Made by a program: the position numbers and the translations under genes. Positions 28,978 through 64,000 of a stretch of 64,000 bases of DNA are shown one piece after another. Below the pieces are notes generated by a model that did no database searches, was not told where the DNA came from, and saw nothing but the letters and a program-made list of their open reading frames with translations. The stretch comes from Blastobasis lacticolella (taxonomy: Eukaryota; Arthropoda; Insecta; Lepidoptera; Blastobasidae), in NCBI GenBank assembly GCA_905147135.1, contig LR990044.1, forward strand, positions 15,876,122-15,940,121, read 5' to 3'. Position 1 is the first letter of the stretch; every line of letters begins with the position of its first letter.

Positions 28978-29133
28978 ATGACGCCGACACCACAATCAGC
29001 ATCGATCCAGGAGCCAGAGGGAGAATCGGTCCTTAGGCCTCTGGTTGGTGAAGAAGTAGTGATCAGTGGTATATCTGGCATATTTCCGAAGTCAAAAAGC
29101 ACTCAGGAGTTCATGGAGCATCTTTACAATAAG
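28978..29133 (+). CDS. FAS-like exon 1: start of KS domain
   Basis: Residues 1-52, ending in phase 0 at AAG|GTAAAT. It starts with a Pro/Glu-rich leader of about 24 residues, then EEVVISGISGIFPKS, the hallmark KS N-terminal strand. A TGA lies upstream in frame with the ATG, so no longer N-terminus is possible on this exon. Confidence 0.9.
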
Positions 29134-32100
29134 GTAAATTTAAATATTCACCTACGTACTCAAATCAAGGTCGGATAGATCATTTTGAATAAGTAAGTAC
29201 ATGTTAGACCCGACTGTAAACCATTAACTTAGAATGAAAAAAAATTAATAGAGAAAACGTATTTTAATTGAAATCCGGTTTATTTTAATATTAGAGCGTA
29301 AAAGCATAAATTATAAAAACCATGGTAAACTCAAACTCAAATACGTTTATTCAGTTCAGGTCTTCACAAACACTTATGAACGTCATAATCATAAATATAA
29401 TATAAAATGAACGCTAGGAACCACGGTACCATCGAGCGGACAACGGTTTCTTGGCTAGTATGTAGGGCCATATAAAAAAGAAAACAGAAAATAGACTCCG
29501 CGGTCAAAGATTTAATTCTTTGTCCGCGACACTGTGACATTGACAGACACGTAATGTCATTTGATATGTCGTAATGTCATTTGGTAGGTGTTGTTTATTT
29601 TTTATTATATTTTATCATTTTTATGTATTTACCGGTACCGATTCTTTATAACTTTAATTGTAAGGCATTTAACTTAGCAAATTAACCGACAGAACGCGCT
29701 CAACGTTTTCATCCAGCGAATACATAAGATATTATCTTTTGATGAAGATGTAAATAAAATAAAGATAATTGCAATCTCTAGTGTTGTTCTGCAGACTTGG
29801 TTTCTGAAATACAACTTGATACAAAGTGGTAATGTATCACTAGTGGGGCCGTAAATCTTTAGGGACCCACATCTTAGTAAATTGTGGGCCCCGACAGTCA
29901 ACTTTAACCCCGGACGTCCCTAGTGTGGAATCTTTCTATTGAGTCACTTTGAAAAGAAGATAATCTTCCTTATGGGAGAGTCAACTGAAGAACTTTGTAC
30001 CACGTATACCTACATAATTTTTTTTTAATTTAATATTGTTGACTATTAGATTTCCGCGACTTCGTTCGCGTGTTTTATCCTATATACCTTTCTCTTGAAT
30101 CACTCTGTCTGTTGGTTAAATTCGCATGAAAATCCGTTAAGGAGTTCTTGAGTATGTCGCAAGACAGACAGACGCGGCCGGGCCTTTGTTTTATAGTATG
30201 TACGTGTGAACGTGAGGTACCAAGTTCGATCCCCAATGCCGCCATGGCTACTTTTTCTGAATTATATGTACATTAGATGAACACTAAGATTCCAGTGCTC
30301 CATGGGGTGAGGATTTGGGGAACCGTGGCTTTGGCAGTGGAGTGGCTTTTGTCTTTTTGCTGCCAGAGCAACGTGTTATTGAGGTAGGCAACGCATTGGC
30401 GATACTCTTGGTATTGCTAATGTCTATAGGCAGTGGTGACCACTTTCCATCTGGTGGACTGCTGGAAAACACTAACCGATGCACTTACGGTCACGGGGTG
30501 CGGTAACGAAAAACATCGTCAAAAACTTGCACATTCAGGCGAGTGAATGTGTAGAACCTGTCTAACAAGTCAAGCGACCTATGAAATTATAAGATTGATC
30601 ACAATCAACAATAAAGCAATACTCATTTTAAAATGAACACGTCTGTCTGTATACAACAAGATAGTAGCTAAAAGATGGATATCTTCATTATTCAAAATCA
30701 GGTTCCTTACTTGTCGATTTCAGTCAATCTTCTGATTTCCCAAGTCGCTTGACTTTTTAGAGTTTAACCATGATCCAATCTTGATAGGTTTCCCTGTTAA
30801 CAGGGTTACGGAGGTCAGTCGGGAGTCGCTCTATGTAATTACCTGTAGGCTAATTAAGTAACTCTGTTGTCAACAATTCTGTGATTTCAATTATTGAAAT
30901 TGTTACTTTTGCGTATGATCGATTTAATAGTTTCAGTTTTTGCTCTAAAACTTTGTGAGCATCTGGGCATAAATAGGAACTGGACAATATTTACGTACGA
31001 CCATAGAAACTAGACAAAGTTTACGTTTCAGGCTTACTTTGAGACTTATTATAATTAGACTAACCATGGATATACCTATTCAATTATTTAACGACTTACA
31101 CTGCTGTTCTTTTTTCATATTGTCACCAGTGCGTTGGTGGTCGGCAATACGACCGACATTTACACACAATAGTAAAATTTGGATACCGAGAGCGTCGGTG
31201 GCCAAGCGGTTAGAGTATCCGACTCGTAAGCCAGAGGTCCCGGGTTCGAATCCCGCTCCGGCCATGTACCAATGACTGTTTTCTGAGTTATGTTCATTAG
31301 TTGAATACTAACCGATGCTCTTACGGTGAAGGGAAACATCGTAATGAAACCTGCACATTCAGACGACTGGATGTGTAACCATGATCCAATCTGGTCAGGT
31401 TCCCCTGGTAGCTGGGTCAAGGAGGTCAGATGGCAGTCGCTCCACTGTAATTACCTGACCTGCCAAATCCTGGATCATGGTCAAGGCGGACCCCGGGCCC
31501 TCGTGCGCGAGAGTACAACCGGGACATTAACGCCAAGATGATTTATACTGTTACGAGCAGCGTTTAGCGAGTTAAATAATGTAGTGAAACACACAATTGT
31601 CAAATTTCCGTGTATCAAAGCCGTAGTAAGCACGCCGTAAGTTGTCAATCCAGATAGAATCACCAACCGAATCACCAATCACAACAAAATCAAGTTTTCT
31701 TTTAAAATACCAAACCAGTCATTGCGTAGAGAGCAAATTTTCAAAGTGAAGGACTTACTTACTTACTTATTGTACCTACCTACTTTTTCAACGCTTCCAT
31801 CATCGTGGATAATCAAAGATCGTGGTTTAAAGTAGTTGTCATAACTTTTACAGTGCGAAAATGTTTGTTACACACAAAAGATCCTTCAGTGGGACTCCAG
31901 TATGCTTGGGGAATAGCAAAAGTCCATTTGTTCAATAGAATTGCATATTTTGCAAAGCAAAATTCGGCACAGCTTTTTTCCCATTTTTAAGGTTTAATCA
32001 TAATTTTACTTGCATTTTTCAAATGCAACAACGCCTTTGCACCTGTTAGAGAAAGATTACGATTATAAAACAGCATTTGATTCAAGAAATAAGTAAAAAA

Positions 32101-35100
32101 CTAACAACAGAAATGGTCAAGGATTGTTTTTCAAAACTCGTATTTATCCAATTTTAGCACAATTATAAATATATTTACTTTTATTCACCTTCGTAGATGG
32201 TCCATAGAAACGCGTTAATTTACAATTTTATCAATATACTAGCTGACCCGGCAAACGTTGTTTTGCCATATAAATAAAAAAAAATTTAGGGGTGGACTAC
32301 CCCTAACATTTAGGGGGATGAAAAATAGATGTTGGCCGATTCTCATGAATACCGGATAAGCACAAAAAATTTCATCAAAATCGGTCAAGCCGTTTCGGAG
32401 GAGTATGGCAACGAAAACTGTGACACGAGAATTTTATATATTAGATTTCAAACTTATCGTCATAAAATTCATAATTTTCCCGCACATTGACATGTAAACA
32501 ATGAGTAAATCGGTTCACAGCGACGTTGCCGTTCCGTGCTACAGCATGGCTTGTAAGATGAAGGAGGCTATGTTGATGCAAATTCCGAATTACTTTTATT
32601 ACTTAGCGCGGACACCGACCTACCAATCAGGGCCAGGCAGAGTCGGACCGGGTGCAATCTGAAGGTCATATTTTCACCAGGGTCCAGCCCAAGGTTTCCC
32701 TGCTACATGGAACCCATTGGTCCTAAAATACTAGTTTCTAAAGAGAATTTATAGTGCTTGTTGATCTACATTTCGAATGACAGCTGTCAAACTTAAAACT
32801 GCAATAACTCCTAAACTATTCGTGCTAGAACACTAGTTCCTAAAGAGAAATGATAGTGCTCGTCGAGATCTACATTTCGGATGGCAGCTGTCAAATGTGG
32901 AACTGTTGTAACTCGGAAACGATTGGTCTTACAACACTAGTTCCTAAAGTAATATAATAGTACTCATTGAGATCTACATTTCGGATGACAGTTTTAAGTT
33001 TGACAGCTGTCACCCGAAATGTAGATATCGACGAGTACTATCACTTCTCTTTAGGAACTAGTGTTGTAGGATAAATCGTTACCGAACTCTTTTATCTGTT
33101 TTGTGGAACAAAAAGTTGTAGGTTGATAATTATGTCGCCTCGACGTTTGTCGGAGAAACGTTCAGTAGATCAAAAGGTATTTTGACAACTCTTTTTCGGA
33201 TTGTACTGATTACCCCATAATAATACAAAATTCACGGTAAATATATTTCTCCAATAATGGCAACACCAAACATGACACTTGTCAATTTAGAATGACGGTG
33301 ATTATGCCAATAACATTATGTTTACACTGTTAGAAAGGTACACAGGACTATCGATGGTGACTCTCGCTCTGCCCGGTTTTAGTCAAAGCAGTGCGCAGTC
33401 CCTTTGGGTAGTAAGTCCATGGTGGAAACAATGTGGGAGTCGATGCATTCCAAAGAGTTTAATATTATGTAAAACTCTTTAGTTGATTTGTTCATTCTAG
33501 AAGTAGAAGAAGTCGGAGAAGTCCCATCTCTAAAACCATTAGACATTATAGATTTCGGAATGTCAATATGCCAATGATTTTTAAAATCTGTGGCAGTAAG
33601 TGATGGTGAAATTTATATTTTCAGTGAAATTACGTATTTAAATGAATAATTTGCTACAGTGTTCGTTGAAATTACATTTTATGTGTTTCTTATATAATTC
33701 AAGACATCTATACATAATGTTCGTAACGTAATTGATACGGCAAGTCACAATTTTGTTACGAATGCTGTTTGTTTACCACATAAGACAAATTAAAATAAAT
33801 TAATGGTAGATACCAAGTTTTAATTCGAGACACACACTATGCAAATGCAGGGACAAAACAAGACAGCCCATCTGCAGATAAGAAATTTTTTACTACGAAC
33901 TCTGGATTGGCAGACTTAACAATTCGAATTAATCCTTGACATGCAAGTTTCTTCACGATATTTTCCTTCACTGAAAAGCCAAATAAATTATTTGCATCCA
34001 TACATGAATAAGGTATATGATTAAAACCCATTTTCGAAGGTAAGGTGTCTGGGTATCAAACCCTCGCCCTGATACATACCACCGTCTTTTCAATCTCTAG
34101 ATCCTACATACCGTGAATACCGTGCCTTCTAGAGAACATAGTCATGAACAAAAAAAATAATGAAAAGTACATAAATACAGGGTGTTTCATAATACATGTA
34201 TAAAGCCGAAAGGGTGTTAAAGTAGAGCTTTCAAAGAGTGCACTGGCGACTTCATTTTATCCGGACATTGAATTTTAATTTTAATAAAAAAAAAATTTTT
34301 TCAAGATAAATAACCATATCGACTACGTTGAAGCGCAGCTCTATTTCAAGTTGATGACCATATAAAAAACAGGTTAATAACCTCGTGCGACCCCTATCGA
34401 AACAAAGCAACCTCCTCAAGCCTACTACCAGGAGCCTAATGCTGTGTACACACCGGGCGATGTGTGACGCGCACCCGTTTCGGCCAACGATTGTCCGTTG
34501 GCGTGTGCCGGCCGGCAATCCGCAGTGCAGCGTGGCGGTAACATCAAACGGATAGAAGTAATCATCCAATCGCAGTTTGGGCGGATACCGAAGGCCAACA
34601 AACAAACGTGCAAATACGAGCCCGAATCGGTTCCCAAAACTCCCAAAGATCGTTTGCCACGAAATGCAAGTATTAGACCTTAGAAGTCCAAATAATTCGG
34701 CCGACAGCCCTTCGTTGGCGTACGTTGAGTGTGTACACACCATAAGGACGAGTAATAACCTCGTGCCATTCATATCAAAACAAACCAACCTCCTTCATCT
34801 TACTACCAGGCGTCGTACTAAATGTTACCTACTTATCTACATGAATAGGCGCTACCACATTAACTAGGAACTTGCCTACACTAATTATTTTTAATAGGTA
34901 GGTATGCTTAAATAGTCGGAGCGTCGGTGGCCTAAGGTTGCGGTATCCGACTCGTACACGAGAGGTACCAGGTTCGAATCCCTCTGCCGCCATGTACCAA
35001 TAACTCTTTTTTAAGTTATGCACATTAGCTGAATACTAACCGATGCTTTCACGGTAAGGGAAATTATCATGATGAAACTTACACATTCAGTTCAGACGAC

Positions 35101-53100: not shown

Positions 53101-56100
53101 TCATAAATTCTCCATAATTACTTATGGGTAACATATTTATGCAAACTAAATGTTTTCTGCGAAACTGAACACTGTCAAAGCGCTGCTGGTTTAGTGGCAG
53201 TGTACTTGCAATTCTTGCAGTGTCCAGGAATTGGATGGGTAAATATGAAAAAAAAAATTAAAGTTAAATCAATCAATATTCATTCTTCATTTCAGGACCC
53301 GGGCTCTTACAATATCTGAATGAGGTGATAACTAATCCCAAACCTCGAAGTGAAAAATGGGTTTCAACGTCAGTTCCTAAAGGCAAATGGAATGAAGAAT
53401 GTGCAAAATATTCCTCTGCAGAATACCATACCAACAATCTGCTTGTAAATACCTATTGACTACTTCACTTGATCAACATGTTTTCTTTTGATCCCATTTC
53501 TTGAACTAAACTTTCTTACTCTTATACTATTTTCAGAATCCTGTGCTTTTCGAAGAAACATCTGCCCTCATACCTGAAAATGCATTGTTGATTGAAATTG
53601 CACCACACGGGCTCCTACAAGCGATACTGAAACGTTCTCATGAGTCTTGCGTCAACATTCCATTAACCAGACGAGCTCACGACAAACCGTCGCAGTTCCT
53701 ACTCGAAGCCATTGGACAGTAAGTTTAAAAAGTGATGAGATGCATATATGTGAGATTAACACATTTTTGATACATATTAATATATTATTGCATTTCAAAA
53801 CTAATATTTTTAAATATTTGAAACCCTTTAACATATTATCTTGGTTAAAGCACTCACTATTTTTTAAGTTGGATTTTACTATCATAATTTGGTGATGAAT
53901 TATTTTGATTTTTAGACTTTATCAAGAAGGATTGAATTTGAAAGTTGATGCTTTGTACCCTCAAATACAATATCCTGTATCTACTGAAACTCCATTTTTA
54001 TCCCATTTAGTACGATGGGAACATAGTGAAGATTGGTAAGTTTACAGGTCAAACATATATTCGTTTTATATATATAATATTCGTTTTCTGATATGGTTTA
54101 ATATGACAATTAAAAAATTCCAAAGTGGCCATGGCTAAGTTGCAGCATATTTTTAAAGTCACTAGGAAATGTATGTATTTCCTAGGTTCTGTACATATAT
54201 CTAAAATGGGAGCCAGAAATGTTATGTTTTGAGGTTATGTCAGATTTTATTTCCTAGAAATAATGACAGATTACATACATTTGCGGTGACATACGCACTA
54301 AACACCGACCCTTCCTTACCTAAACACCTTTTTTATTTTTAGGCCCATAGCCATATACAACACGACCGTTAGAGTAACCTCTCCAATACGTCATTACGTA
54401 TTATCAACGTATGACGACGAGTTCAGATATCTCAAGGAGTATAAACGACAAGGAAAAATTGAATTTCCCGAAGCAGCACACTTAGTTTTGGTCTGGGAGA
54501 CCTTTGCTATGTTTAGAGGCTATGATTACAAAAAAATGTCCATCACATTTGAAAATGTGCAGTTCCATTCTAATGCAAATGTAGATACCGAAGAATCGTT
54601 ATACCTAGACATTATGATCCAAAAAGGAAGTAACTTGTTCGAGGCAAGTGCAATATTACAATTTTAATCGCACGAACGACATTTCTTACGCTGAAACTCA
54701 TAAAATTGTGTTATAATTTTTTTTTTAGGTATGCCATCTGGGCAACAAGATTGTAAGCGGCTCCATCCAGGAAAAGAAAGGAAAGGAACGTATAGTTAAA
54801 TTGACCGAAATTAAAGACACAATGCAAACTATATCCGCTAAAGATGTGTACAAAATTTTGCGATCAAAAGGACATTCATACTCGTAAGCTGCACAATTAA
54901 TCCATACATCTCACTGATAAGTTGTGTTACATTGAAATGTGTTCCTTATTGAAGTACCACTTATCCCTTTATTGGCTATAGTTGTAGCAAAAAAAGCAAA
55001 CGTCATCATCATCCTTCTGTAGCGGTCAATCCCAGCTTCTGCCTGGGTCCGCTTCCCTACTTCCCCAGGTTCTCGGCAACCACGTGTCGTAAGCCGTTGG
55101 CTCTCACCTCCATTTCAGCGAAATCAATCTATCGCTTCTTCAGCCAAAAAGTAAACACTCATATTCAACATTTCTCATCAAGGTTCTTAAAATAAACTTC
55201 AGGTATTGGTATCAACATCCAGGCAAGATTCAAAGAGTGTCCGATCTGCCAGATTTGGATGAAATGTTTCGTATTCGTTAGGTCGAAACCATCTTACCAA
55301 TCCGGTTCTTTTCTACTATCAATAAAATTATCGTTTTTTTTCTAGTGAGGATTTTCAATCCATCATTTCAACAAACAACGAGAGAAACTTCGCTAAAGTT
55401 GTGTGGAATAACGATTGGGTAAAACTTATTGACTCTCTTATTCAATTAAATATATTGGAAAGAGATAGCGATGGATGCTCTTCGCCCATGATTATCAAAA
55501 GAATTACTATAGATGTTGAGCAGAATATTAGAGAAAATATTACTGATCAAAATGACAATCAGCTTGATATTCAGATCGATAAAATGATATGTGCTACGAG
55601 GTGAGTAAAATAAGGAATTCACCACTTAAAACTGATTTAATTTTGTAATAAGCTTTAAAAAATAATTGTGCAATCGCATTCTTTCAGATGTGGGGGAATT
55701 CTAATGTCAAATTTAATCTTCACTGAATCTGCACCTCCAATTCAAGAATCTTTAGTAGAAACGAAAACTTTTATTCCACATTTCTTGACAGGAAATATAA
55801 ACGTAAGTCAGTAAAAAGAAAGTAATTTAGACTTTCGCCAAAGTAATTACTATGCTATTAAGACGCTCACCAAAATATTTATTTTGTTTTACGAAATGGA
55901 TATATGCTCACCAAATGTATTTTATTTATACGGAAATTTAAAGCATAAAACGAGTAACGGTGCAATGAGACCTTGAACTAAGAAGCCCAATTATATCTAC
56001 TTACAAACTTAGTTATTAGTACTTAATTAATCAAACAGAACTTGGTGAGCATTTATCTGAAGTAAAGGAGTTTAGATTTTTAAAATTCGTTTTGTATATT

Positions 56101-59100
56101 TCTGGTACAGTCTGTTAATTTTTTGCAGTTTACATGGATAATTTCGGTCGAAATTAGAAATCGCTATCGGGCAAATCAGTTTCTTTAGCTACTGTACATG
56201 ACCTGTCAAGTGTGACCGATATGTACTAATTTAAACATTCATGATACTTGATTGACCATTGGTTAGCAGTCAACTAAATGTACATAACTTTTATAAAACT
56301 TCTCTATAACAATATATTCGCGTCGATTGCACTGGCTTCAACCAATTAAATAGGACGTAAACGTCCCTGACTTAAAGCTTGGTTCGAAACCGACGTACTA
56401 GACTTTATGAGAGCTGAAGAATATAATATAAATTTAAAGTTGGCCCTAGTCTAGCCCAGATTTAAACCCCTTAGAAAACAAATTATGGTCAGTTTATAGT
56501 ACAAATAGCCTGCTGAAATATCTGTAGCTCAAGCTCTATAATCCATAAATTCATGTCAGGATATTATATCTCTTGTTTGTTGCAAAAACATTTTTATTTT
56601 TACAGGTCGATCAAGCTTTACTTATCAACCTTCAAATTATAGCGGAAAATATTACCAAACCGACAATACCAATCTTCGAAATACTATATGACAATATTTC
56701 CGTAGCAGACATAGTAAATTGTGCTATAGTTAAAGTACCTGAGGGAAATTTTTCCATTCACACAGTACCGGCAGACATTATTCTAAAAGACCGCAAAATG
56801 CTTTGCCAGTCTGACGTATTCATTGTTCATGATTTTCTACAAGATGAGTTGGTAAGTAAATCTCACTAATACTTAATTGAATGTATCTAAATACTTATGG
56901 CAAAAACGAATAATTTAAGTATCTGATATTATGTTCTAATTTCATTTTAGAAAATGAAGGCGATATACGAAACCACGTCAAAGGGCACTTTTGTTTTAAC
57001 ATTTGAAGACGAGAAGAATATAATAAAGACTAAATACAAATTCTTCGATATTATATCCATTGTTAATGCCCCATTTAAAAAAATCATTTTACTCAGAAAG
57101 ATTGAACATATTGATTTCAATCATGTGAAATATATTAATGTAACTCATGACGCAGCTTTCTCATGGGTGACCCGTGTACGCAGTGAAATACAGAAGACTC
57201 AAACCGTGGTCTTAGTTTCAGAAAATCAAAATCTATGTGGTTTATTAGGTATAACACATACTCAAACTCACTTCGCTCTTACATTTTTTCATTTGTCGTG
57301 AAACTCACTAATGTATTTTTATTATTCAGGGTTTGTAAAGAAAATTAACAAAAGTATGAAAAAATCTCTGGTATTGGTCATGGTGGATGATGTTAACGCT
57401 CCACCCTTTAACCCAAGCGATAGATTTTATAAAGAGCAGCTTCAAAAAAATCTGACCATTAATGTTTTTAAACAGGTAGGTTATAGTAATCATCAATGTA
57501 GTTTAGTAATTAATATTTAACACTTTGTGTTGTCACTTCATGATGGAACTCCATTATTATGAATTAAATCACTTTTTGTACACTAGTTCCACTTTATTAT
57601 ATAATTTTTATTAAATTGCAACCAATTAATTGAGTAATTGCCTGAAGATGAGTAATTCGAAACCGGTTGCAATTTAATAAAAATTATATAATAAAGTGGA
57701 ACTAGTGTACAAAAAGTGATTTAATTCATAGTAATTAATAGTTATCTTAATACCTAATACGTAAGTATATCCTACTATGTAAAAGTTTGATACTATGAAC
57801 TGTGTGGGTGGATGTTGGGATGTTTATTACATTTTCTTATAAAATTAGCGGTAATATAAACATACACATGAACCAAGTTTATCCTAAAATTGAATGTGCT
57901 GAAAATTTTAAGGAACTGATTCGGAACCTAATAACCAAATTTAACCGGAACAAATTTGCGAACAAAAGCTAAGCAGTGCTTCACACCGACTTTTGCTATA
58001 AAAAGCACAGGTTCGTCTAATATTATGAAGTACTGCTGCCACCCATGGCGTAGTGCCCCCAATACCAACTTCTTCTAGTGTTGATGTTATCCAAAGCCGG
58101 ACTATTCGAATCCGTTAGACATGTAACATGTAACCTCTCTGTGAGTTCATCGTCTCCAGTACGGGGAATGTTCTGAGTGCCACCATCACTTTTCCGTTAT
58201 CTGACCTCCCAACGATGTGTTAGATTTCAACCCAGTTATCTGTCATACTTCTGCCTGACAACCCAACTAACGTACGTACGTAGGTATCGCTGACCATTTT
58301 ATCGCGCACGTGCAAGTTTCCGGTGTACTTGGGGTTCTTCAAAAGATGTCTACTAGACCTCAAAGACCGACACCATATTCGCTTCCCTTAGGTTTCTCAT
58401 GTCCTGTGGGTTATGGTCTATCTCAATGGGCAGTTGAATTTGACATTTGATGTACATCAAATTGTGTTGTAGATACCTACTATATCTGTATTGGTCACTG
58501 GCTATAGCGATTATCAAATTAGTGTAGTGCCGGTACAACAAACGTCAAATTCACTCCACTGTATAGCCCCCCTATTTGACGTTGACTGCTTTCCATTAGG
58601 TGGACCACCACACCGCGTGTCTCCCAAGACAAACATATTTTTTAAGTTTTATGTGATTACATGGATTATTGATTTCACTTTTTTTAGAACATGTGGGGTG
58701 GATTTTATTATTTACCAAGTTCAACCAAAATTCATTTCACAAATTTCCGCTTGAGTAACACTTTAAGAGGCATTGAAAATTTGTGTTGGAATGAAATACC
58801 TACAGTTCGCAGTACCGACAATACCGTGCAGGTAATATTAGTTGTAACCAATAGACAAAAGTAACTTTTATCTAACATAATAAATCATAATTAATATAAA
58901 CAACACGTCGTATTCTTAGGTGTGTTATGCTGGGCCTACTTTAAACGACGCACTAAAAGCTGTAGGCGACTTTTCAAACGATGAAATGGTATATGGACGA
59001 GACTTCAGCGGATATAACAATAAGTATGTACCTGTAAATCAATATAATGCAATTATTTCATTATAAAGTATTGTTATTTATACCGTTATGGCTGCCAAAT

Positions 59101-62100
59101 CTTTATTTTAGGGATCAGAAAGTAATGGGAATTATTAATGGAGGAGCCATTGCTAGTGTCGTTGAAGCTGATCCTAATTTGATATGGCCGGTCCCTGATC
59201 ATTGGTCATTAGAAGATGCTGCTACAGTGCCCCTGCCCTACGTATATGCATATTACTGCTTGGTATGATACTATTATAGTTACACTTCTTCCATATTCAT
59301 GAACTTATATGTACTTTATAATTTCAGTTTTGTAAGTGTTGTGAATAACCACGAAAGTCATAAAAACTATTTATATTTTGCTTAGTATGTTGATTGAATT
59401 TCTAAATTAATCTATCTTATTCATTACAGGCACAGCGATATACATTGATGAAATGTCATAAGGTATTTGTTAATAGTGGCACAGGAGCAATAGGACAGGC
59501 TGTAATATCTCTTGCCTTAGCAATAGGCTGTACCGTATATACGACAGTCGGTGACATACAGAAGAAACGTCTACTTTTGAAGGCGTTTCCACAGTTAACA
59601 GGTATTTATACAACACCTCGTAAAATATTGTCCGCCAAGAATAACTTGTTGCCTGCCGAAAAAACTAACTTCGTTAGTACTGTATTTAATTTATTAAGAC
59701 GAAGTGTTTTTAAACTAAACAGACTTCAGTAGACTTGATAGTTATTGAGTATTCATTGTAAGTTTGTTCATAATTTATTTAAATTTAAATTTACAATAAC
59801 GGCTTATTAGGTTCACATCTTAAGTTCTAATAATTTTAATGATAGTTACTATAATTTTAAAACTGTTTTTTTACAGAAAATAATATCGGTTATTCTAAAA
59901 GCGACATGTTTTATGCTGGAGCTTTGATTCAGTCCCCGGCAGGTTATGACTTTGTTGTTAGCACTCTAAGCGGTTCATCGCGTCAGGTCAGTACTGAAAA
60001 GTCAAAAGTGAAAATTGACTTCAAATTATGGTACAATAACAATAAAGATCCGAAAATAATACATAATGAAATAAGGATCTTTTTTTGCAATAAAATAAAA
60101 ATATTTTATGTGTGTTTAAGGTCGCAATGAAGTTAGTAGGGTTCGATGGAATATTTATGGATCTCTCCGATACAGACAAGTACAAAAACAACAGCTTCGG
60201 CATGCAGTTCTTGGAACAAGAAAGAAATTACATGGCCTTCGATATTAATCTTTTGTTTAGACCAGATAATATTGAAGAAAAGAGGGTTAGTGGATACGAT
60301 TAAGGACTTTGTACTATAATAATAATTTTCATTCATTAGAGATTCTCACTCGCCGGCTTTATTGTCTGACACTGGAAGTGATTTTGCGGCGTAATACGTT
60401 TTCTACCGATTTCATAAACTAACTAGAGAATCCAACAGGTTTCTGAGATGTTGTGTGGACTACTAAAGTTTAAACCTGCCGTAAATGAATGTTTTATCCT
60501 ACACTTAGAACAAAAGTATTTCAAAATGGAAGCGAGAAGCTCTCCACATTTCTGAAATAAGTCTGCAACCCTTAGATGCTTCGGGAATAAAGTATGTGGG
60601 CGGCGATCACAGTCTAACATAAAATAAAACCAGCGAAGTATGAGTCGATCTCGTATGCAAAGGGTTTTGTAGCATTATCAATAGTAAAATTTCAGTGCCT
60701 TATGTAGTTCGCCAAATTTTATTAACCTTGTCTGATTCACGCTTGACCGGTGTTTAGTATTTGTTGTTATCTATACTAATATTATAAAGAGGAAGAAATT
60801 TTGTCGGTTTATGTGTTTGTGTGTTTGTTTGTAATTGATGAACTCAAAAACTACTTATCGGATTTTACCAACAGAAAGCTACATTATCGGCGAGTAATAG
60901 AGGCTATAATATGTACCTACATAATTTTGTGTTTATTTGAGATCTGTAATGAATGCAGCAATTTAACTAGGGCTTTTGTTGGGTTTTGTAATTTTCAGGA
61001 CAATGTTTGTATGCAAGAAAAAAAGGATAGGTAGGGGTAGTGCAAGTGTAGGCCAGGCGTAAGGAAGGTGTGGGGTAGGTGTAGGGTAGGGTAGGATAGG
61101 GTAGGTGGAGGTGTAGGTTTACCTTTATTTACCCTTCGCGTACGGTACTTTGAAAAGATTGTGCGCAGCTATTTTTATTTTGATATTTCGTATTATTTCA
61201 GAAAATTCAAAGCATGATTTTGAACGGCATTGCTACTGGAATAGTAAGGCCATTAGTTCGTGTGACTTATTCACTCGAAGATACTACCAAAGCTTTCGGC
61301 ATTTTACTCGCATCGAAACAAAGGAGCCGTGTGTTATTAAAACTAAGGGATCCCTTGAAGCTAAACCAGACATTGAAAATTCAACCCAAGTAAGTTAAAT
61401 ACCGTTATAATTTGTGTTGGTAGACTGAAAAACCGTCGCTGCATTTATTCAGGATCCGTCGAAAATAGTTGAAGAAATTCGTTACAAAGCTTGATCAACG
61501 ATCTAACGTCATCTCTCTTGCTTTTTTCTTTTACGTTCTTCAGTATGCCGTATTATTACATAATATTTCTGATTTCAGTCGCCTCTATTTATTTCATTAC
61601 CACCATGACTTGGGCGCATCTGCTCTAAAATGTTTAAACACTTATGTTTCAGAATGACGTACTCTCCTGTAAAAACACAAGTAGTCATATGTGGTGATAG
61701 TATAATCGGGGTCGAACTTGTGGAAAGATTGGTGAAAAAAGGAGCAAAGAAAATAGTAATCAATTTGGAATCGAGCTTAATAGATCACTATTTCCGAATG
61801 AAATTGAGGTGAGTGTCTGCAATTTACACTTCGGAATTTCTATGATAGGTCGCTGTTGTTTGTTGGGAAATCCCTATTCCTGAGATTGTCAAGAATAAGA
61901 CTTACTTGAAAGAAAATGTCAAGCTTGCATCTAAATAGCTGGGAGTGCTTAACAGATCAAAGCAATTCTTCACGCCGGGGCAACGACTTCTCCTTTACAA
62001 GGCTCAAGTCAGACCCCATTTGGATTATTGCTCTCATCTATGGGCGGGAGCGCCGGCATATCAGCTTGGTCCTTGTGACTTGATCCAAAAGCGCGCTGTG

Positions 62101-64000
62101 AGAATTGTCGGTGTTACCATGCTCACAAGTGGTATTGAGCTGCTGAGCCAGCGGAGGGATTTCGCCTCCCTTTATGTGTTCTACCGCTTGTACAACGGTG
62201 TTTGTTCTGAAGAACTGTTTGACATGATGTCTATAGCTACATTCTATCATCGCACCGCTCGCCACCGACGGGAAGTTCATCCTTACACCTTGGAGCCAAA
62301 TTGGTCGCGAACTGTGCGGTTCCAGACGAACTTACTCCCACGCACAGTAAGGTTGTGGAATTAACTACCTGGAGAGGTTTTCCCTGGAGAGTATAACATG
62401 GAGTTCTTCATGAAAGGGGTTAAAAGGTTTTTACAGAGTCGGCAACGCGTGGGTGAAGCCCCTGGTATTGCAAATGTCTATAGTCTACGGTGACTGCTTA
62501 CCATCAGGCAGGCCTTAAGCTTGTTTGCCACCTTGGTGGTATAAAAAAATACTCAAAAGCAGGATTGGAATATCAGGAATATTTTAAATTGTCATCTCTC
62601 TTTATTTATGACATATGCGTACTATCCAACCCTTTGGATGGCGCTTATCAAAACAACCTATCCGTCATTACTAGTAGGTTAACCGACCGCCGCAAGAAAA
62701 ATAAAACATTATCTGACTGTTACAGTTCATGGCGAAAACAAGATGTCGATGTTCAAACATATTCCATGAATCTTCAAAATGAGTTAGAATGCTCTGTTAT
62801 TTTGAATGAAGCTATGAAGCTAGGTGATATCGAAGGCATATTTATTACACAAGATTCTAAAATACAAACTGAGAATTTGGAATCAATTGATTTTCTCGAT
62901 CATTTTGATAAAACTGCGTTTGTTGTTGGCAATTTGGACTATGTTTCGAGAAATATTTGCCCCAAATTAAGGTAAGTAATTTTAACTTAGTAAGTTAATT
63001 ATGTTGTGCATAATTTCAAAGCAGGTGACTCTATGTACCAAGGTTAACATCGCAGTGAATATTTAACATATTGCAATTTTATATTTAGTTTAACCATTGT
63101 TTTATGTTGTAACGGGTTAGTTACTTTTTTTCTTATCGAAGTGCAATATCTAAAACTCAAAGATATAATTATTATTATTATAGACAGAGGATAAAACAAA
63201 CTATTTTTAGTGTCATTTTCTAAGTTCATATAATTAACATCATATTATATTATGCACAAGGCACAATAATAAACATTGTTTTATTAAACTTAGTTTTAAA
63301 ATTAACTGCAGTCCTAAAATTTCCAGATTTTTCGTAGTAGTAAGTCATGGATCCGAGAATGCAATCGCTGCGTACACCACGTCCATATCGCATAGCATTT
63401 GTCAGAAACGAAATGAAGTAGGGTTACCAGCACTCTCATTCCATGTGCCCTTGATAAACTTGGTAATACTTACTTTATTTTAATTGGTTTTCTTACATAT
63501 GTGTCAATAGTAAGACAACTTTTAAATATAAATTCCTTATTTTTTCCAGATTGACAATAATATTGATATGAAATCGTCTCGACTTGAACCCCAAACATTA
63601 AAAAATGTATTTGACTCATTAGAAACTAGTTTAAAGCTCAAACATGAAGATGCTATTACATTTGTAATGAATAAACAAGCAAACAACTTATTGAACAAAA
63701 TATTAAATGTTTTAGGTAAGTAAAGAAATATTCCCTTTTTTTGACATCTTTAGGATGATACTGCAAATTACAGGCATCAGGAATGATAACTAACACAAAT
63801 CCTATGTATATACGACATACAACTCAGTTCCTGCTGTTGGTTTTTATAAAAAACATTTGTCAGAGTGATAGTTTATTGACTATCTCTGTTATTATATGTA
63901 ATTTAAATATTACAACTTCATAATGTAACATTTTTAAACATCAGATTACAAAGTTAAATATTTTGCAGATGTGAAATCAATAGAGGATGTGCCTGAAAAT
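28978..64000 (+). CDS. FASN-like: Fatty acid synthase-like multienzyme, 35 exons, 3' end beyond the window
   Basis: Animal type I fatty acid synthases are cytosolic multienzymes that build fatty acids from acetyl- and malonyl-CoA with NADPH. Thirty-five exons join in frame into 1,963 codons. Approximate domains are KS 26-430, MAT 525-830, DH 868-1143, reduced pseudo-methyltransferase 1144-1373, ER 1374-1718, KR 1719-1930 and the start of the carrier region after about 1940. The carrier serine and thioesterase lie past the edge; insect family members usually run to about 2,300-2,400 residues. The ATG has an in-frame upstream stop and a promoter at good spacing. Intact: KS Cys183, KS Lys347 and His352, MAT Ser608/Arg633/His710, DH Asp1049. 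Apparently lost: KS His (Asn316), DH His (Tyr901), ER Lys (Asp1617) and the KR glycine motif (1731-1737). The open frame argues against a simple pseudogene. I infer a diverged, possibly non-canonical paralogue. Family assignment is very secure; function is not. Confidence 0.95.
30043..30205 (+). repeat. Dispersed insect repeat with GCGACTTCGTTCGCGTG
   Basis: CCGCGACTTCGTTCGCGTG, AAAATCCGTTAAGGAGTTC and ACAGACAGACGCGGCC occur in the usual order of a repeat widespread in insect introns (recognised from memory). Confidence 0.6.
30207..30562 (+). repeat. SINE copy interrupted by a LINE tail
   Basis: A SINE head (GAGGTACCAAGTTCGATCCC) runs to 30313. A LINE tail (CCGTGGCTTTGGCAGTGGAG to CCATCTGGTGG) fills about 30312-30465. 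The SINE body resumes with ACTAACCGATGCACTTACGG. This is a nested insertion. Confidence 0.65.
30767..30852 (+). repeat. SINE body fragment
   Basis: ACCATGATCCAATCTTGATA...GGTTACGGAGGTCAG...GTAATTACCTG matches the middle of the SINE. Confidence 0.65.
31189..31541 (+). repeat. tRNA-derived SINE, best full-length copy
   Basis: The head GTGGCCAAGCGGTTAGAGTA, the CTCGTAA loop (CGT anticodon position, Thr-like) and the B-box GGTTCGAATCC supply internal Pol III promoter elements. The body reads TACGGTGAAGG, ATGATCCAATCTGGTCAGG, GGCAGTCGCTCCACTGTAAT and GGATCATGGTCAAGGCGGAC, ending GCCAAGATGAT. It is the reference for the other copies. Confidence 0.9.
32239..32440 (+). repeat. Dispersed repeat with CTAGCTGACCCGGCAAACGT
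   Basis: It begins with that signature, includes ATCAAAATCGGTCAAGCCGT and ends GAATTTTATATATTAG. This unit recurs in many insect genomes (recognised from memory); its class is uncertain. Confidence 0.65.
32730..33070. repeat. Tandem array of about 104-bp units with a terminal inverted copy
   Basis: Units start at 32730, 32831 and 32936 with ACTAGTT(C)CTAAAG and share CTACATTTCGGATG and GACAGCTGTCAAA. From 33012 the sequence turns round (CCGAAATGTAGAT...TTTAGGAACTAGTG), pairing with the last unit. Confidence 0.8.
34378..34812. repeat. Direct repeats flanking a 300-bp GC-richer block
   Basis: TAACCTCGTGC...CCTCCT...CTACTACCAGG at 34378-34434 recurs at 34756-34810 with about 75% identity. GTGTACACACC occurs just inside both. 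The enclosed minus-strand open frame (34788-34252) has no known motif. Confidence 0.5.
34918..35256 (+). repeat. tRNA-derived SINE, forward member of an inverted pair
   Basis: Head GCGTCGGTGGCCTAAGGTTG...CGACTCGTACACGAGAGG, then the family body with a small internal duplication (TTCAG TTCAGACGACTGAATGTG) and GGCGGACCACGGGCAC at the end. Confidence 0.85.
35289..35548 (-). repeat. tRNA-derived SINE, reverse member of the pair
   Basis: It begins ACAGTGGAGCGACTACCATC and ends with the reversed head (CTTACGAGTCGGATACTCAA, GCCACCAACGTTCT). Only about 30 bases separate it from the forward copy. Confidence 0.85.
37456..37689. mobile_element. Hairpin MITE, 234 bp, TA-flanked
   Basis: The ends ACAGACG...CGTCTGT lie between TA dinucleotides. 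Arms of about 80 bp share GATACTAATCCTTACG and GTTGCAGT in mirror order with about 75-80% identity. No ORF. Confidence 0.7.
38855..39112 (-). repeat. GAT-tailed repeat family, full copy
   Basis: CATCATCACAGCCCGTAACA to CACCACACGGCC, nearly identical to the 11.6-kb copy, suggesting a recently active family. Confidence 0.85.
40857..41412 (+). mobile_element. RTE-type LINE 3' fragment in intron 1
   Basis: From about 40975 the frame reads VFDQCVWPVIIYGTETWPLT, VTQRAMEKAVLGVSLRDRI and LKWQWAGHIARRTDGRWGSK, the C-terminal half of RTE ORF2. A frameshift follows, then the LWRSLGEAYAQQRAC-like end and a GATGATGATG tail. It ends 160 bp before exon 2 and is 5' truncated. Confidence 0.9.
41574..41763 (+). 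CDS. FAS-like exon 2: KS domain
   Basis: Residues 53-116, phase 0 to phase 1. It contains EDLVTEHERWNF and MEPMSRKLLEHAYSAIYDAG, matching the family's DPMxRxLLExxYEAIxDAG element. The donor is G|GTAAGT. Confidence 0.92.
42159..43180 (-). mobile_element. CR1/Jockey-like LINE fragment in intron 2
   Basis: The minus strand reads MPQGSVLGPILFEFYLTDLK (RT block), then SLFADAKILG where FADDTK is expected. The tail region contains YVRPLLEYGFQIWNPYFKKD, NLEKVQKRATRMV and ALGMTTLEERRQGGDL. It ends with a TAA-type repeat (42159-42174). Frameshifts and the altered FADD motif make it inactive. It is antisense to the host gene. Confidence 0.88.
43267..43387 (+). CDS. FAS-like exon 3: KS domain
   Basis: Residues 116-156, phase 1 to phase 2. 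It contains RGKKVGVFIGSMFSESEK and NGFGITG, both standard KS elements just before the nucleophile region. Confidence 0.92.
43912..44115 (+). CDS. FAS-like exon 4: KS nucleophile region
   Basis: Residues 156-224. It contains YANRISYWIDGKGPSM followed by LDVACASSAACIEHAY, the KS active-site segment with nucleophile Cys183 (family form DTACSSS), then AAIVGGCNLCMHP. The catalytic Cys is intact. Confidence 0.95.
44222..44360 (+). repeat. Partial GAT-tailed repeat family copy in intron 4
   Basis: CTCCAACCCGCCTGCCAGAC, then GGAGATCGCATAATCGCGGT and TTAAGTCCTGC follow the family order but are heavily altered. Confidence 0.45.
44588..44704 (+). CDS. FAS-like exon 5: KS domain
   Basis: Residues 224-263. 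RHGFLCMDGKTKVFDKNGDG replaces the family segment LGVLSPDGRCKSFD; VLFLQKAKDAKR ends the exon. It resembles an EF-hand loop by chance. Confidence 0.9.
44989..45155 (+). CDS. FAS-like exon 6: KS, catalytic His replaced by Asn
   Basis: Residues 263-319. It ends in VEYVEANGA, where active KS domains read VEAHGTGT. The catalytic His codon is therefore AAT (Asn316, 45146-45148). The exon is otherwise in frame with normal splice sites. Confidence 0.92.
45735..45871 (+). CDS. FAS-like exon 7: KS, second His retained
   Basis: Residues 319-364. It contains ADGKELEAIGRVFGK and VGSVKSIMGHSEPASG. Lys347 and His352 of the family motif KSNxGHxEPASG are kept. The first residues (AATAEAD) diverge from GTGTKVGDP. 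Confidence 0.92.
45950..46600 (+). mobile_element. LINE reverse-transcriptase remnant in intron 7
   Basis: The pieces read VFCAFVDLEKTYG, KGVRQGCVASPRLF and RYADDQVLPASSESELQMML (catalytic YADD kept), then GKSIEQVKEFVYLGSYLK. Order and motifs are those of a LINE reverse transcriptase, with stops and frameshifts. At 46235-46290 a GGGATTGACCGCTCGGATGA phrase, also near 40925, interrupts it. Confidence 0.85.
47043..48120 (+). repeat. Dispersed GAGCGAGC-type repeat units in intron 7
   Basis: Units like ATGAGCGAGCGNAGCGAGCT followed by CGAAATTTTTGACATTTT occur near 47043, 47132, 47185, 47814, 48023 and 48086, with decayed units between. Spacing is irregular (50-600 bp). Confidence 0.75.
48928..49131 (+). 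CDS. FAS-like exon 8: end of KS
   Basis: Residues 365-432, phase 0 at both ends. It contains GSLPGNIHYNEP and NCFSYGGVNIHVLL, corresponding to the family's NSFGFGGANAHVLL. Confidence 0.92.
49255..49441 (+). CDS. FAS-like exon 9: KS-MAT linker
   Basis: Residues 433-495. It contains PHLVLISGRTDQSVEYVL and IPGHMCRGYTILG, the conserved linker signature SGRTxxxV...IPGHxxRGYTIL. Confidence 0.92.
49731..49893 (+). CDS. FAS-like exon 10: start of MAT
   Basis: Residues 495-549. RPIWFVYSGMGSQWAGMG is the acyltransferase N-terminal signature (VFSGMGSQWxGM). Confidence 0.93.
50101..50270 (+). CDS. FAS-like exon 11: MAT
   Basis: Residues 549-606. It contains VLEPKGLDIVKIL and FVGIAAVQIGLTDILNALGI, the helix before the GHSxGE nucleophile elbow. 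Phase 2 to phase 1. Confidence 0.92.
50911..51062 (+). CDS. FAS-like exon 12: MAT nucleophile elbow
   Basis: Residues 606-656. GHSVGELGCAYADG carries nucleophile Ser608 (50916-50918). YSRGL carries Arg633, 25 residues on as in the mammalian enzyme, followed by RGSMAAVGLGY. The catalytic parts look intact. Confidence 0.95.
51151..51334 (+). CDS. FAS-like exon 13: MAT catalytic His
   Basis: Residues 657-718. It contains EVACHNSATSSTISGP and SSNIAYHSRYIADAG, with His710 (51310-51312) 102 residues after Ser608, the same spacing as mammalian Ser581/His683. Confidence 0.95.
51897..52190 (+). repeat. SINE in intron 13, 5' truncated
   Basis: It begins within the B-box (AATCCCGCTCCGGCCATG) and carries the full body to GCCAAGATGA, highly similar to the 31.2-kb copy. 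Same strand as the host gene. Confidence 0.88.
53296..53444 (+). CDS. FAS-like exon 14: MAT C-terminal part
   Basis: Residues 718-767. It contains RSEKWVSTSVPKGKW and YHTNNLL, a signature that continues directly into exon 15 as NPVLFEE. Confidence 0.92.
53537..53718 (+). CDS. FAS-like exon 15: end of MAT
   Basis: Residues 768-828. It contains NPVLFEETSALIPENALLIE, then APHGLLQAILKR and FLLEAIGQ. The donor is CA|GTAAGT in phase 2. Confidence 0.92.
53916..54035 (+). CDS. FAS-like exon 16: MAT-DH linker
   Basis: Residues 828-868. LYQEGLNLKVDALYP matches the family's LYxAGLNxxVxxLYP. The stretch ending in RWEHSEDW leads into the dehydratase. Confidence 0.9.
54343..54643 (+). CDS. FAS-like exon 17: DH, catalytic His replaced by Tyr; GC donor
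   Basis: Residues 868-968. It contains YLKEYKRQGKIEFPEAAHL followed by VLVWETFAM. The hot-dog dehydratase motif HxxxGxxxxP reads YKRQGKIEFP here, so the catalytic His is Tyr901 (54440-54442) while Gly and Pro remain. The exon ends at GAG|GCAAGT, a GC donor; no GT donor keeps the frame. Confidence 0.9.
54729..54883 (+). CDS. FAS-like exon 18: DH
   Basis: Residues 969-1020. VCHLGNKIVSGSI matches the family's ICEGGxxVxSGxI. KDVYKILRSKGHSYS precedes the second half of the hot-dog fold. Confidence 0.9.
54993..55140 (-). repeat. LINE-tail-like repeat in intron 18
   Basis: GTCATCATCATCCTTCTGTA, then GCGGTCAATCCCAGCTTCTG and GGGTCCGCTTCCCTACTTCC. The reverse complement ends in GATGATGATGAC, as in LINE tails. 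Related phrases occur near 40.9, 46.25 and 49.5 kb. Confidence 0.55.
55346..55600 (+). CDS. FAS-like exon 19: DH second half
   Basis: Residues 1020-1105. VVWNNDWVKLIDSLIQLNIL retains the DH Asp (Asp1049) and the following Gln1053. The Asp partner of the lost His is therefore still there. Confidence 0.9.
55688..55802 (+). CDS. FAS-like exon 20: end of DH
   Basis: Residues 1105-1143. RCGGILMSNLIFTESAPP corresponds to the family's CGGVEIxGL segment. KTFIPHF closes the domain. Confidence 0.88.
56606..56851 (+). CDS. FAS-like exon 21: reduced pseudo-methyltransferase region
   Basis: Residues 1144-1225, phase 0. VDQALLINLQIIAENITKP resembles the family's helix opening the non-catalytic methyltransferase-like region. 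Conservation is weak, but frame and splice sites are clean. No SAM-binding glycine motif is visible. Confidence 0.85.
56951..57248 (+). CDS. FAS-like exon 22: pseudo-methyltransferase / pseudo-KR linker
   Basis: Residues 1226-1325. It contains KKIILLRKIEH and AAFSWVTRVRSEIQ, matching FxWVxxLK in relatives, then LCGLLG, equivalent to GxVGLVNCLR. Confidence 0.87.
57330..57475 (+). CDS. FAS-like exon 23: linker before ER
   Basis: Residues 1325-1373. FYKEQLQKNLTINVFKQ corresponds to the family's LQxxLxxNVYKDGxWG, continued in exon 24. Confidence 0.9.
57558..57730. repeat. Perfect 66-bp inverted repeat (hairpin) in intron 23
   Basis: Arms 57558-57623 and 57665-57730 are exact reverse complements, separated by 41 bases. 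Arm landmarks are CACTTTTTGTACACTAGTTC and AAATTGCAACC. The lack of any mismatch implies very recent origin or gene conversion. A transcript would fold into a long dsRNA stem. Confidence 0.92.
58688..58831 (+). CDS. FAS-like exon 24: linker to ER
   Basis: Residues 1374-1421. It opens with NMWGGFYYLP, equivalent to DGxWGxxRHLLL, and continues with LRGIENLCWNEIP, matching the first ER strands (GDLSSLxW). Confidence 0.88.
58920..59023 (+). CDS. FAS-like exon 25: ER
   Basis: Residues 1422-1456. CYAGPTLNDALKAVGDF and YGRDFSGYNK correspond to the ER segment VxYASLNFRDVMLATG...GxEFSG. The donor is AA|GTATGT in phase 2. Confidence 0.87.
59112..59262 (+). CDS. FAS-like exon 26: ER
   Basis: Residues 1456-1506. 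KVMGIINGGAIASVVEADP, then WPVPDHWSLEDAATVPLPYV, the family's VPxxWTLEEAATVPVVY element. Confidence 0.92.
59430..59601 (+). CDS. FAS-like exon 27: ER nucleotide-binding region
   Basis: Residues 1507-1564. VFVNSGTGAIGQAVISLALA is the dinucleotide-binding element (family HxGSGGVGQAA). TVYTTVGDIQKKRLL and FPQLTG follow. The region looks competent to bind NADPH. Confidence 0.92.
59877..59986 (+). CDS. FAS-like exon 28: ER
   Basis: Residues 1564-1600. It contains NNIGYSKSDMF and GYDFVVSTLSGSSRQ, equivalent to IGNSRDTSFE...GVDLVLNSLAEEKLQ but several residues shorter. Confidence 0.88.
60121..60285 (+). CDS. FAS-like exon 29: ER, catalytic Lys position is Asp
   Basis: Residues 1601-1655. GFDGIFMDLSDTDKYKNNSF aligns with the family's GGRFLEIGKFDLSxNxxL. 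The expected Lys falls on Asp1617 (60169-60171). The later catalytic Asp (family LLDxxF) also seems absent. The alignment is by eye. Confidence 0.9.
60771..60920 (+). repeat. Dispersed repeat with ACTAATATTATAAAGAGGAA in intron 29
   Basis: It shows the typical series ATATTATAAAGAGGAAGAAA, GTTTGT-rich, CTCAAAAACTACTTATCGGA, AGAAAGCTACATTATC and AGTAATAGAGGCTATAATAT. It is a repeat unit abundant in moth and butterfly genomes (recognised from memory). Confidence 0.65.
61025..61118 (+). repeat. G-rich GGTAG/GGGTA short tandem array in intron 29
   Basis: Repeats of GGTAGG, GGTGTAGG and GGATAGG, almost free of C, extend over about 90 bp directly before the exon 30 acceptor region. Confidence 0.7.
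61202..61389 (+). CDS. FAS-like exon 30: end of ER
   Basis: Residues 1656-1718. ILNGIATGIVRPLVRVTYSL matches GIxxGVVRPLxxTVF. TTKAFGILLASKQRSRVLLK matches AFRxMAxGKHIGKVVLK. Confidence 0.92.
61653..61808 (+). CDS. FAS-like exon 31: KR with degenerate nucleotide-binding motif
   Basis: Residues 1718-1770. The Rossmann entry reads VVICGDSIIGVELVERLVKK where functional KR domains read VTGGLGGFGLELAxWL. The glycine pattern is lost (residues 1731-1737) although the flanking helix GVELVERLVKKGAKKIV is recognisable. Confidence 0.9.
61938..62550 (+). mobile_element. Jockey-like LINE 3' end in intron 31
   Basis: An open frame of 139 codons reads LLYKAQVRPHLDYCSHLWAG, IQKRAVRIVG and ASLYVFYRLYNGVCSEELFD, then LLPRTVRLWN, the ORF2 C-terminus. 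A 3' UTR follows with GCAACGCGTGGGTGAAGCCC, ending GGTATAAAAAAAT. It is 5' truncated but otherwise well preserved, so it is young. It serves as the intact reference for the split copy at 12.4/14.5 kb. Confidence 0.9.
62726..62971 (+). CDS. FAS-like exon 32: KR
   Basis: Residues 1770-1852. It contains SSWRKQDVDVQTYSMNLQ, AMKLGDIEGIFITQDSK and YVSRNICPKLR, equivalent to RRWREQGVxVxVST, LGPVGGIFxLAxVL and VSREACPELD. The acceptor CAG|TTCATGG joins in phase 2 to exon 31 and skips the LINE upstream. Confidence 0.9.
63327..63462 (+). CDS. FAS-like exon 33: KR active-site region
   Basis: Residues 1852-1897. RFFVVVSHGSENAIAAYTTS replaces the family's FVVFSSVSCGRGNAGQxNY. Ser1858 and Tyr1868 remain, but the segment is shorter and the YxxxN Asn is Ile. 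KRNEVGLPALSFHV equals RRxxGLPGLAIQW. Confidence 0.9.
63550..63715 (+). CDS. FAS-like exon 34: KR-carrier linker
   Basis: Residues 1898-1953. It contains RLEPQTLKNVFDSLETSL, then FVMNKQANNLLNKILNVL, equivalent to the run-in to the acyl-carrier domain (LVxxVAHILGI). Confidence 0.88.
63969..64000 (+). CDS. FAS-like exon 35 (partial): start of acyl-carrier region
   Basis: Residues 1953-1963. DVKSIEDVPEN continues exon 34 in phase and matches the family's DVKxVNPxxxLADLG. The carrier Ser is beyond the window. Confidence 0.85.

Follow-up and report, generated by a model that had tools for sequence, protein, structure and literature searches.

The window analyzed here is a 64,000-nucleotide stretch of the genome of Blastobasis lacticolella (577 Mb in total), at positions 15,876,122-15,940,121 of contig C5. 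On its + strand, it contains part of a fatty acid synthase (FAS)-like gene, copy A, which occupies 28978-64000 of the window, with its start codon at 28978. This part has 35 exons that join into 5,889 bp, or 1,963 codons, with no stops; the first-pass annotation had reported the same open frame, and an independent rebuild reproduced it. The end of the window cuts exon 35, and the adjoining 2.1 kb completes the gene, which has 39 exons, encodes 2,332 amino acids, and ends at 66112 (window numbering, extended beyond its last base). The gene model is a prediction that we built by hand from the DNA, by splice signals and homology. Within the window, all 34 acceptors are AG and 33 of the 34 donors are GT; the donor of exon 17 is GC. 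This GC-AG intron has its donor at 54644, and the gene's other two tandem copies (described below) have the same GC donor.

The predicted protein has the domain order KS-MAT-DH-pseudoME/KR-ER-KR-ACP-TE, as in animal type I FAS. KS is encoded by exons 1 to 8 (28978-49131; PF00109, PF02801, and PF16197), with exon 1 at 28978-29133 and exons 2 to 8 at 41574-49131. MAT is encoded by exons 10 to 15 (49731-53718) and was identified both by Pfam (PF00698, E = 7.8e-71) and by similarity to a FAS structure (2jfd_A, E = 1e-96). The DH region includes exons 16 to 19 (53916-55600) and ends within exons 20 to 24 (55688-58831), which then encode the pseudo-methyltransferase/pseudo-KR structural region (PF21149, E = 5.7e-17, residues 1295-1382 of copy A). 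ER follows in exons 25 to 30 (58920-61389) and KR in exons 31 to 34 (61653-63715). The ACP region begins with the start of exon 35, of which 63969-64000 lies within the window, and the gene continues as exons 35 to 39 to 66112.

Upstream of copy A, on the - strand, is a reverse transcriptase fragment (26416-26718; PF00078, E = 1.7e-10), which was the only match when nine long frames were compared to Pfam. The - strand frames at 26523-27808 may be part of the same broken element. Intron 1 of copy A contains a tandem array with 2.7 copies of a 104-base unit (32716-32991). By eye, we also saw repeated tRNA-like stretches (with a GGTTCGAATCCC box) that are followed by similar sequence, at about 31190-31264, 34920-34991, and 51898-51912 (tail only); these are perhaps SINEs. 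ARAGORN did not call any tRNA genes in the window.

Tandem copies and other FAS genes

Copy A is the first of three tandem copies. The other two, which are also full length, lie on the same contig at 73770-115868 (copy B) and 125890-180584 (copy C) in continued coordinates, and dS among the three is 0.04-0.06. All 39 exons map in both of the other copies with matching splice sites, and 77 of the 78 exon lengths are equal; the sole difference is in exon 25 of copy C, which is 6 bases shorter and remains in frame. Introns vary widely in length between the copies (intron 1, for example, is about 12, 9, and 15 kb). Each copy has a single stop, at its end, and all 15 of the motifs that we checked are identical in the three copies.

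As computed by the Nei-Gojobori method, dN/dS is 0.184 between A and B, 0.190 between A and C, and 0.253 between B and C. Amino acid changes are fewer than expected under neutrality for every pair (binomial p = 4e-21, 3e-20, and 1e-11, respectively). The first-pass annotation had pointed to a dN/dS near 1 or premature stops as the marks of a pseudogene; with values of 0.18-0.25 and no internal stop in any of the three copies, the gene is not decaying and is under selection.

Elsewhere, the genome encodes an intact FAS on contig C17 (4,591,675-4,641,338): 37 matches cover 2,399 of the 2,417 residues of P0105, a canonical FAS, and the gene agrees with canonical FAS at all 23 checked residues as well as at the 3 residues of the KR triad. 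For a second FAS-type gene (C18:17994490-18009974), 15 matches cover 1,926 residues at about 46% identity to canonical FAS, and the gene agrees with canonical FAS at those checked residues that are covered. We found no match to TE for this gene within the stretch examined. According to excerpts of PMC9409488, a FAS without a predicted TE has been reported from Spodoptera litura, and it is a possible counterpart of the C18 gene. Finally, at least 8 further FAS-like loci lie on both strands of C17 at 9.07-9.90 Mb. The full MAT trio of Ser, Arg, and His occurs at 7 of 8 of these; the eighth is covered at His only, and this His is present.

Active-site residues of copy A

We called residues from a MAFFT local-pair alignment of 123 sequences: the three tandem copies and 120 database proteins, which include 9 canonical lepidopteran FASs. 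MAT is complete in copy A, with Ser608 (GHSVGE) and Arg633 (YSRG) in exon 12 (50911-51062) and His710 (AYHS) in exon 13 (51151-51334). The spacings of 25 and 102 are the same as in P0105 (residues 609, 634, and 711). Copy A has both its domain order and its MAT catalytic spacing in common with canonical animal type I FAS (P0105; PDB 8vf7 and 2vz8). TE, which was outside the view of the first-pass annotation, is also retained, with Ser2125 (GFSYG), the Asp, and His2289 all present. The similarity of this TE to known ones is low: it scores 15.9 bits against Pfam's Thioesterase model, which is under the cutoff of 26.4 bits, and its match to a solved FAS TE is weak (best E = 3.9e-5).

The Cys-His-His set of KS is incomplete. 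The nucleophile Cys183 (DVACASS; exon 4, 43912-44115) and the second His, His352 (SIMGHSEP; exon 7, 45735-45871), are retained, but the first His is replaced by Asn316 (VEANGA instead of the canonical EAHGTG; exon 6, 44989-45155), and it is Asn in all three copies. In DH, Asp1049 (exon 19) is present but its partner His is replaced by Tyr901 (exon 17). No shifted KS or DH His was found near those columns in the alignment, either in copy A or in the listed proteins of its clade (clade A, below). ER has lost both members of its catalytic pair: Lys is replaced by Asp1617 (exon 29), with the nearest Lys 3 residues past the lost column, and Asp is replaced by Asn. The NADPH glycine columns of ER are retained.

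In KR, the glycine motif GGLGGFG has become CGDSIIG (exon 31). At the KR triad, Lys is replaced by Thr and Ser by His, and the Tyr column falls in a 6-column gap (the Ser substitution and the gap are both in exon 33). We placed the Lys column 39 residues ahead of the Tyr, and copy A has a Lys 1 residue ahead of that column. The loss of the KR Tyr is not certain, because a Tyr stands directly after the gap; this may be the old Tyr, displaced by deletions. In the ACP region, the position of the phosphopantetheine serine is Asp1973 in all three copies, with Ser1974 adjoining it, and a Pfam search did not find PF00550 in copy A at E <= 1.

Compared to canonical FAS, then, copy A has lost the ACP serine; the Lys, Ser, and glycine motif of KR; the Lys and Asp of ER; the first His of KS; and the His of DH. 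KS, DH, ER, and KR each lack at least one catalytic residue and ACP is broken, and the MAT and TE sets are complete. The substitutions in KS (His to Asn), DH (His to Tyr), ER (Lys to Asp), and the KR glycine motif had all been read from the sequence in the first-pass annotation, as had the intact MAT trio, and the alignment agrees at every one. It was also considered there that the residues might merely have shifted. The KS and DH His have no shifted counterpart nearby, and the KR Ser and glycine motif are lost. An ER Lys lies just 3 residues past its column and a KR Lys 1 residue ahead of its own; the KR Tyr is the uncertain case.

Relatives of copy A in Lepidoptera

The 120 database proteins are the best of 631 homology matches. 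All of the named species among these 120 are lepidopteran (P0104 bears no species name). A later search with the ACP-TE region matched Papilio and Battus proteins, which are off the tree; the proteins from that search (P0121-P0126) are outside the residue tables as well. The tree of 123 sequences contains 9 canonical FASs, 37 proteins that fall together with the three tandem copies (clade A), and 74 proteins in a second FAS-like clade (clade B). These counts exclude the three copies from this genome, and we drew the limits of the clades by eye. We also built a quick rooted tree (LG+G4) from 30 selected sequences: copy A, 12 of the 37 clade A proteins, 11 of the 74 clade B proteins, 4 of the 9 canonical FASs together with P0127, and, as outgroup, the wasp FAS P0128 (Odynerus). 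In this tree, clades A and B together form one clade apart from canonical FAS, with all 24 of their sequences on one side (SH-aLRT = 100). The listed clade A proteins are about 44-55% identical to copy A in full-length matches. On the tree, clade A includes Cydia, pyralids, crambids, gelechiids, Dendrolimus, Bombyx, Manduca, and noctuoids.

Among the listed proteins, all 74 from clade B have a full MAT set, as do 36 of the 37 from clade A; the exception, P0082, is gapped at the His. In clade A, none of the 37 has the ACP serine (one has a gap there); in clade B, it is found in 11 of the 71 proteins that are covered at this column. None of the 36 clade A proteins covered there, and none of the 73 from clade B, has a complete KR set, and no covered protein of either clade has both the Lys and the Ser. 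The ER set is not complete in any protein of clade A (0/37) or clade B (0/74), and the ER Asp is missing in all 111. Both DH residues survive in 24 of the 36 clade A proteins covered and in 51 of the 74 from clade B. A complete KS triad occurs in 9 of 36 covered clade A proteins and in none of the 74 from clade B, where the second His is Tyr in 73.

Clade B (P0034 and others) shares the gap at the KR Tyr, the loss of the ER Asp, and the intact MAT with its sister clade A. Besides the second KS His, it differs from clade A in TE: the Ser-Asp-His set is intact in 30 of 36 covered clade A proteins but in just 1 of 70 covered clade B proteins. Across the 74 listed clade B proteins, the TE Ser is replaced by Glu in 71, the His mostly by Leu (62), and the Asp by Gly (69).

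Some clade A proteins depart from these patterns. The ER Lys persists in 3 of the 37 listed: P0030 and P0031 from Bombyx mori and P0026 from Manduca sexta. P0030 and P0031 also have a complete KS triad even though the ACP serine is gone. These three proteins may represent intermediate stages of decay, or the use of these domains may have been kept longer. Directly after the shared 6-column KR gap, 26 of the 37 listed clade A proteins and the three copies have Tyr; 8 have Phe. A Ser adjoins the ACP serine column in 4 of the 37 and lies within 3 residues of it in 12 more.

On the tree of 123, the fewest changes that can account for each of the three MAT residues is 0. Every other residue that we checked requires from 1 to 16 changes: 1 each for the ER Asp and the KR Tyr gap; 2 each for the KR Lys, the TE Ser, and the TE Asp; 3 for the ER Lys; 7 each for the KR Ser and the ACP serine; 8 for each KS His; and 16 for the DH His.

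We also compared divergence across domains, using only sequences of at least 2,200 amino acids (9 of 9 canonical, 32 of 37 clade A, and 61 of 74 clade B). Mean identity inside clade A is highest for MAT (70%), followed by KS (62%), TE (57%), the KS-MAT linker (55%), and ER (52%); at the lower end are DH (45%), KR (41%), pseudo-ME/KR (40%), and ACP (33%). The ratio of distances in clade A to those in canonical FAS is 1.15 for TE, 2.5 for MAT, 3.3 for ER, 4.2 for KR, 4.3 for DH, 4.7 for KS, and 17 for ACP. The ratio for MAT is not decisive on its own, because the noncatalytic linker and the pseudo-ME/KR region, which are both far more diverged, also have ratios of 2.5 each. To canonical FAS, the clade A domains are 67% identical in MAT, 18% in ACP, and 28% in TE (for copy A, the mean identity of MAT to the 9 canonical FASs is 73%). 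The MAT of clade A is thus little changed, since its identity to canonical FAS is nearly that within the clade. TE is kept but altered, since it is 57% identical within the clade and 28% identical to canonical FAS.

Of the columns that are invariant in canonical FAS, those that are also invariant across clades A and B number 53 of 220 in MAT, 37 of 326 in KS, 11 of 204 in DH, 11 of 197 in ER, 1 of 176 in KR, 0 of 63 in ACP, and 5 of 90 in TE. Given 53 of 220, the probability that the three catalytic MAT columns would all be invariant by chance is about 0.014, which is suggestive only. Across pairs of tandem copies, dN/dS is 0.06-0.08 in MAT and 0.035, 0.07, and 0.25 in TE (the last is for B and C, with two changes in all), and ranges by domain from 0.13 to 0.52 in KS, the linker, DH, pseudo-ME/KR, ER, and KR. 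A comparison of MAT plus TE to the rest gave Fisher p values of 0.006, 0.017, and 0.094, from rounded counts and for pairs that are not independent. Values of dN/dS are low in the 63-codon remnant of ACP as well (0, 0.08, and 0.26, with at most one amino acid change per pair), which is not predicted by simple relaxation.

Possible roles of the FAS-like proteins

MAT and TE are the two active sites of FAS known to accept CoA thioesters without ACP, and the chains on which KS, DH, ER, and KR act are bound to ACP. If the carrier were lost, these four domains would be freed and MAT and TE would be spared. Clade A shows this pattern, which is why we propose an ACP-independent enzyme that handles acyl-CoA. 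Specifically, we consider it reasonably probable that copy A is a functional but nonelongating FAS paralog, without an ACP and with two CoA-thioester sites kept, from a lineage that is spread through Lepidoptera. Judging from its residues, the protein probably does another job with fatty acid building blocks. This retains much of the first-pass annotation, which described an open frame, losses in four domains, an intact MAT, and a gene that could still be of use. The part that does not hold up well is the loading of acyl groups onto the protein's own carrier, which is unlikely because the ACP serine is lost in the three copies and in 37 of 37 listed clade A proteins (one of them a gap).

From the pattern of changes, we infer that the ancestors of these proteins lost ER and KR chemistry early and lost the ACP serine then or shortly after. 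KS and DH would then have decayed piecemeal, leaving a patchwork between members. In the present protein, MAT Ser608 would be acylated from malonyl- or acetyl-CoA, and MAT would pass the acyl group to an outside acceptor, possibly CoA, water, or the ACP domain of the intact FAS; TE would hydrolyze acyl-CoA. The uneven decay among listed clade A proteins weighs against this proposal (the DH pair survives in 24 of 36, the KS triad in 9 of 36, and the ER Lys in 3 of 37). Also, the conservation of TE is no proof of catalysis, because clade B conserves its TE despite having Glu in place of the Ser in 71 of 74 proteins. Other points against the proposal are the low dN/dS of the ACP remnant, a MAT distance ratio equal to that of noncatalytic regions, a Pfam score under the cutoff for the TE of copy A, the Tyr after the KR gap, and Ser1974 beside Asp1973.

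The main rival is that these proteins are scaffolds or other pseudoenzymes: copy A would dimerize, either with itself or with the intact FAS, and would act as a scaffold, a dominant partner, or an acyl-CoA sensor, with MAT serving for folding or ligand binding only. FAS is a dimer, an intact FAS exists in this genome, and the KS and MAT folds are still recognizable by Pfam. Moreover, the TE of clade B, which is conserved after the loss of its serine, gives a precedent for retained dead domains, and the ACP remnant is constrained although its serine is gone. However, a pure scaffold would not need a nucleophile, yet the 123-sequence tree requires 0 changes for the MAT Ser, Arg, and His and at least 1 for each of the other residues checked. 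We judge this alternative to be unlikely.

It is far less probable that the protein is an active AFPK or FAS that still elongates chains in spite of its substitutions, using an ACP arm that sits on a shifted serine or is provided in trans. Cys183 and His352 are both present, and transacylation may still be possible for a KS that has the Cys and lacks the first His (KS0 type). Ser1974 is next to the site of the lost ACP serine, there is a Tyr right after the KR gap, the ER has kept its NADPH glycine columns, and dN/dS is low in the ACP remnant. Excerpts of PMC10764717 also indicate that arthropod FAS paralogs have been termed AFPKs on the basis of KS scores. However, with the first His replaced by Asn in 3 of 3 copies, KS is incomplete for a KS that acts on ACP, and in clade B it is the second His that is replaced, by Tyr, in 73 of 74 listed proteins. 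The ACP Ser is missing throughout the 37 listed clade A proteins, with no match to PF00550 at E <= 1 in copy A; no covered protein of either clade has the KR Lys and Ser together; and the ER Asp is gone in all 111 listed.

We give almost no weight to a pseudogene or an unconstrained relic. Most of the catalytic sets are broken, and the listed relatives in clade A are only about 44-55% identical to copy A in full-length matches, but the three copies have no internal stop or frameshift, their splice sites are retained, and dN/dS is 0.18-0.25. Least probable of all is that splice choices in our handmade model, built from splice signals and homology, generated apparent substitutions, because copies B and C both contain all 39 exons and the residues in question lie within exons, away from the junctions.

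'Aberrant' FASs are already known at the domain level from several insect orders, Lepidoptera included, according to excerpts of Finck et al. 2016 (PMC5039406). In these excerpts, the FASs of cluster III are altered in one or more domains, with the exception of KS and MAT, and larval RNAi against Tribolium TC000238, whose domain structure is like that of the grasshopper gene in cluster III, was lethal. Like those proteins, copy A is a FAS paralog with missing or unusual domains. As far as the domain-level descriptions in these excerpts allow comparison, it differs in that its KS is degenerate at the level of residues, its TE is kept, and its frame is full length. The first-pass annotation had called a selectively hollowed paralog with an intact MAT unusual; copy A is instead one of three tandem copies, and its lineage is found in many Lepidoptera. 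Excerpts of PMC10764717 count arthropod FAS-like KSs as likely makers of lipids or polyketides. AFPKs as described there are FAS-derived, with FAS-like architecture, and are sorted by KS similarity. The proteins studied here are also FAS-derived, but in contrast to AFPKs, which are proposed to make lipids, clade A lacks the ACP serine and most members of clades A and B lack a complete KS. In the parts of the openly licensed PMC literature that we covered, we found no description of residue-level losses in lepidopteran FASs. What seems new here, without this being proof of novelty, is that the chemistry of the carrier and of elongation is broken while MAT and TE are held, and that two clades have had different fates of TE.

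More tentatively, and with a little less than even confidence, we suggest that these proteins are a large and old lepidopteran family of giant FAS-derived enzymes that dropped the acyl carrier, their FAS chassis now serving as a free-standing malonyl/acetyl-CoA transferase (in one clade, also as an acyl-CoA thioesterase). Such an enzyme would act in trans on the true FAS or on pools of CoA. In that case, many moth entries annotated as "fatty acid synthase," and possibly some AFPKs, would make no fatty acid or polyketide. The structure of the gene, the lost and retained sites, the selection, and the common ancestry are shown by the data; the order of the losses, the activities of MAT and TE, their substrates, and the acceptor are what we infer.

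FAS paralogs of insects are usually read as extra makers of lipids or polyketides, and RNAi studies of cuticular lipids target them. If selection maintains loading and release, then a conspicuous, expanded family in moths and butterflies has an unrecognized role that is independent of ACP, and, if this is true, annotations and knockdown results would need to be read again. The family would also be a natural experiment in which parts of a megasynthase persist once the carrier is gone.
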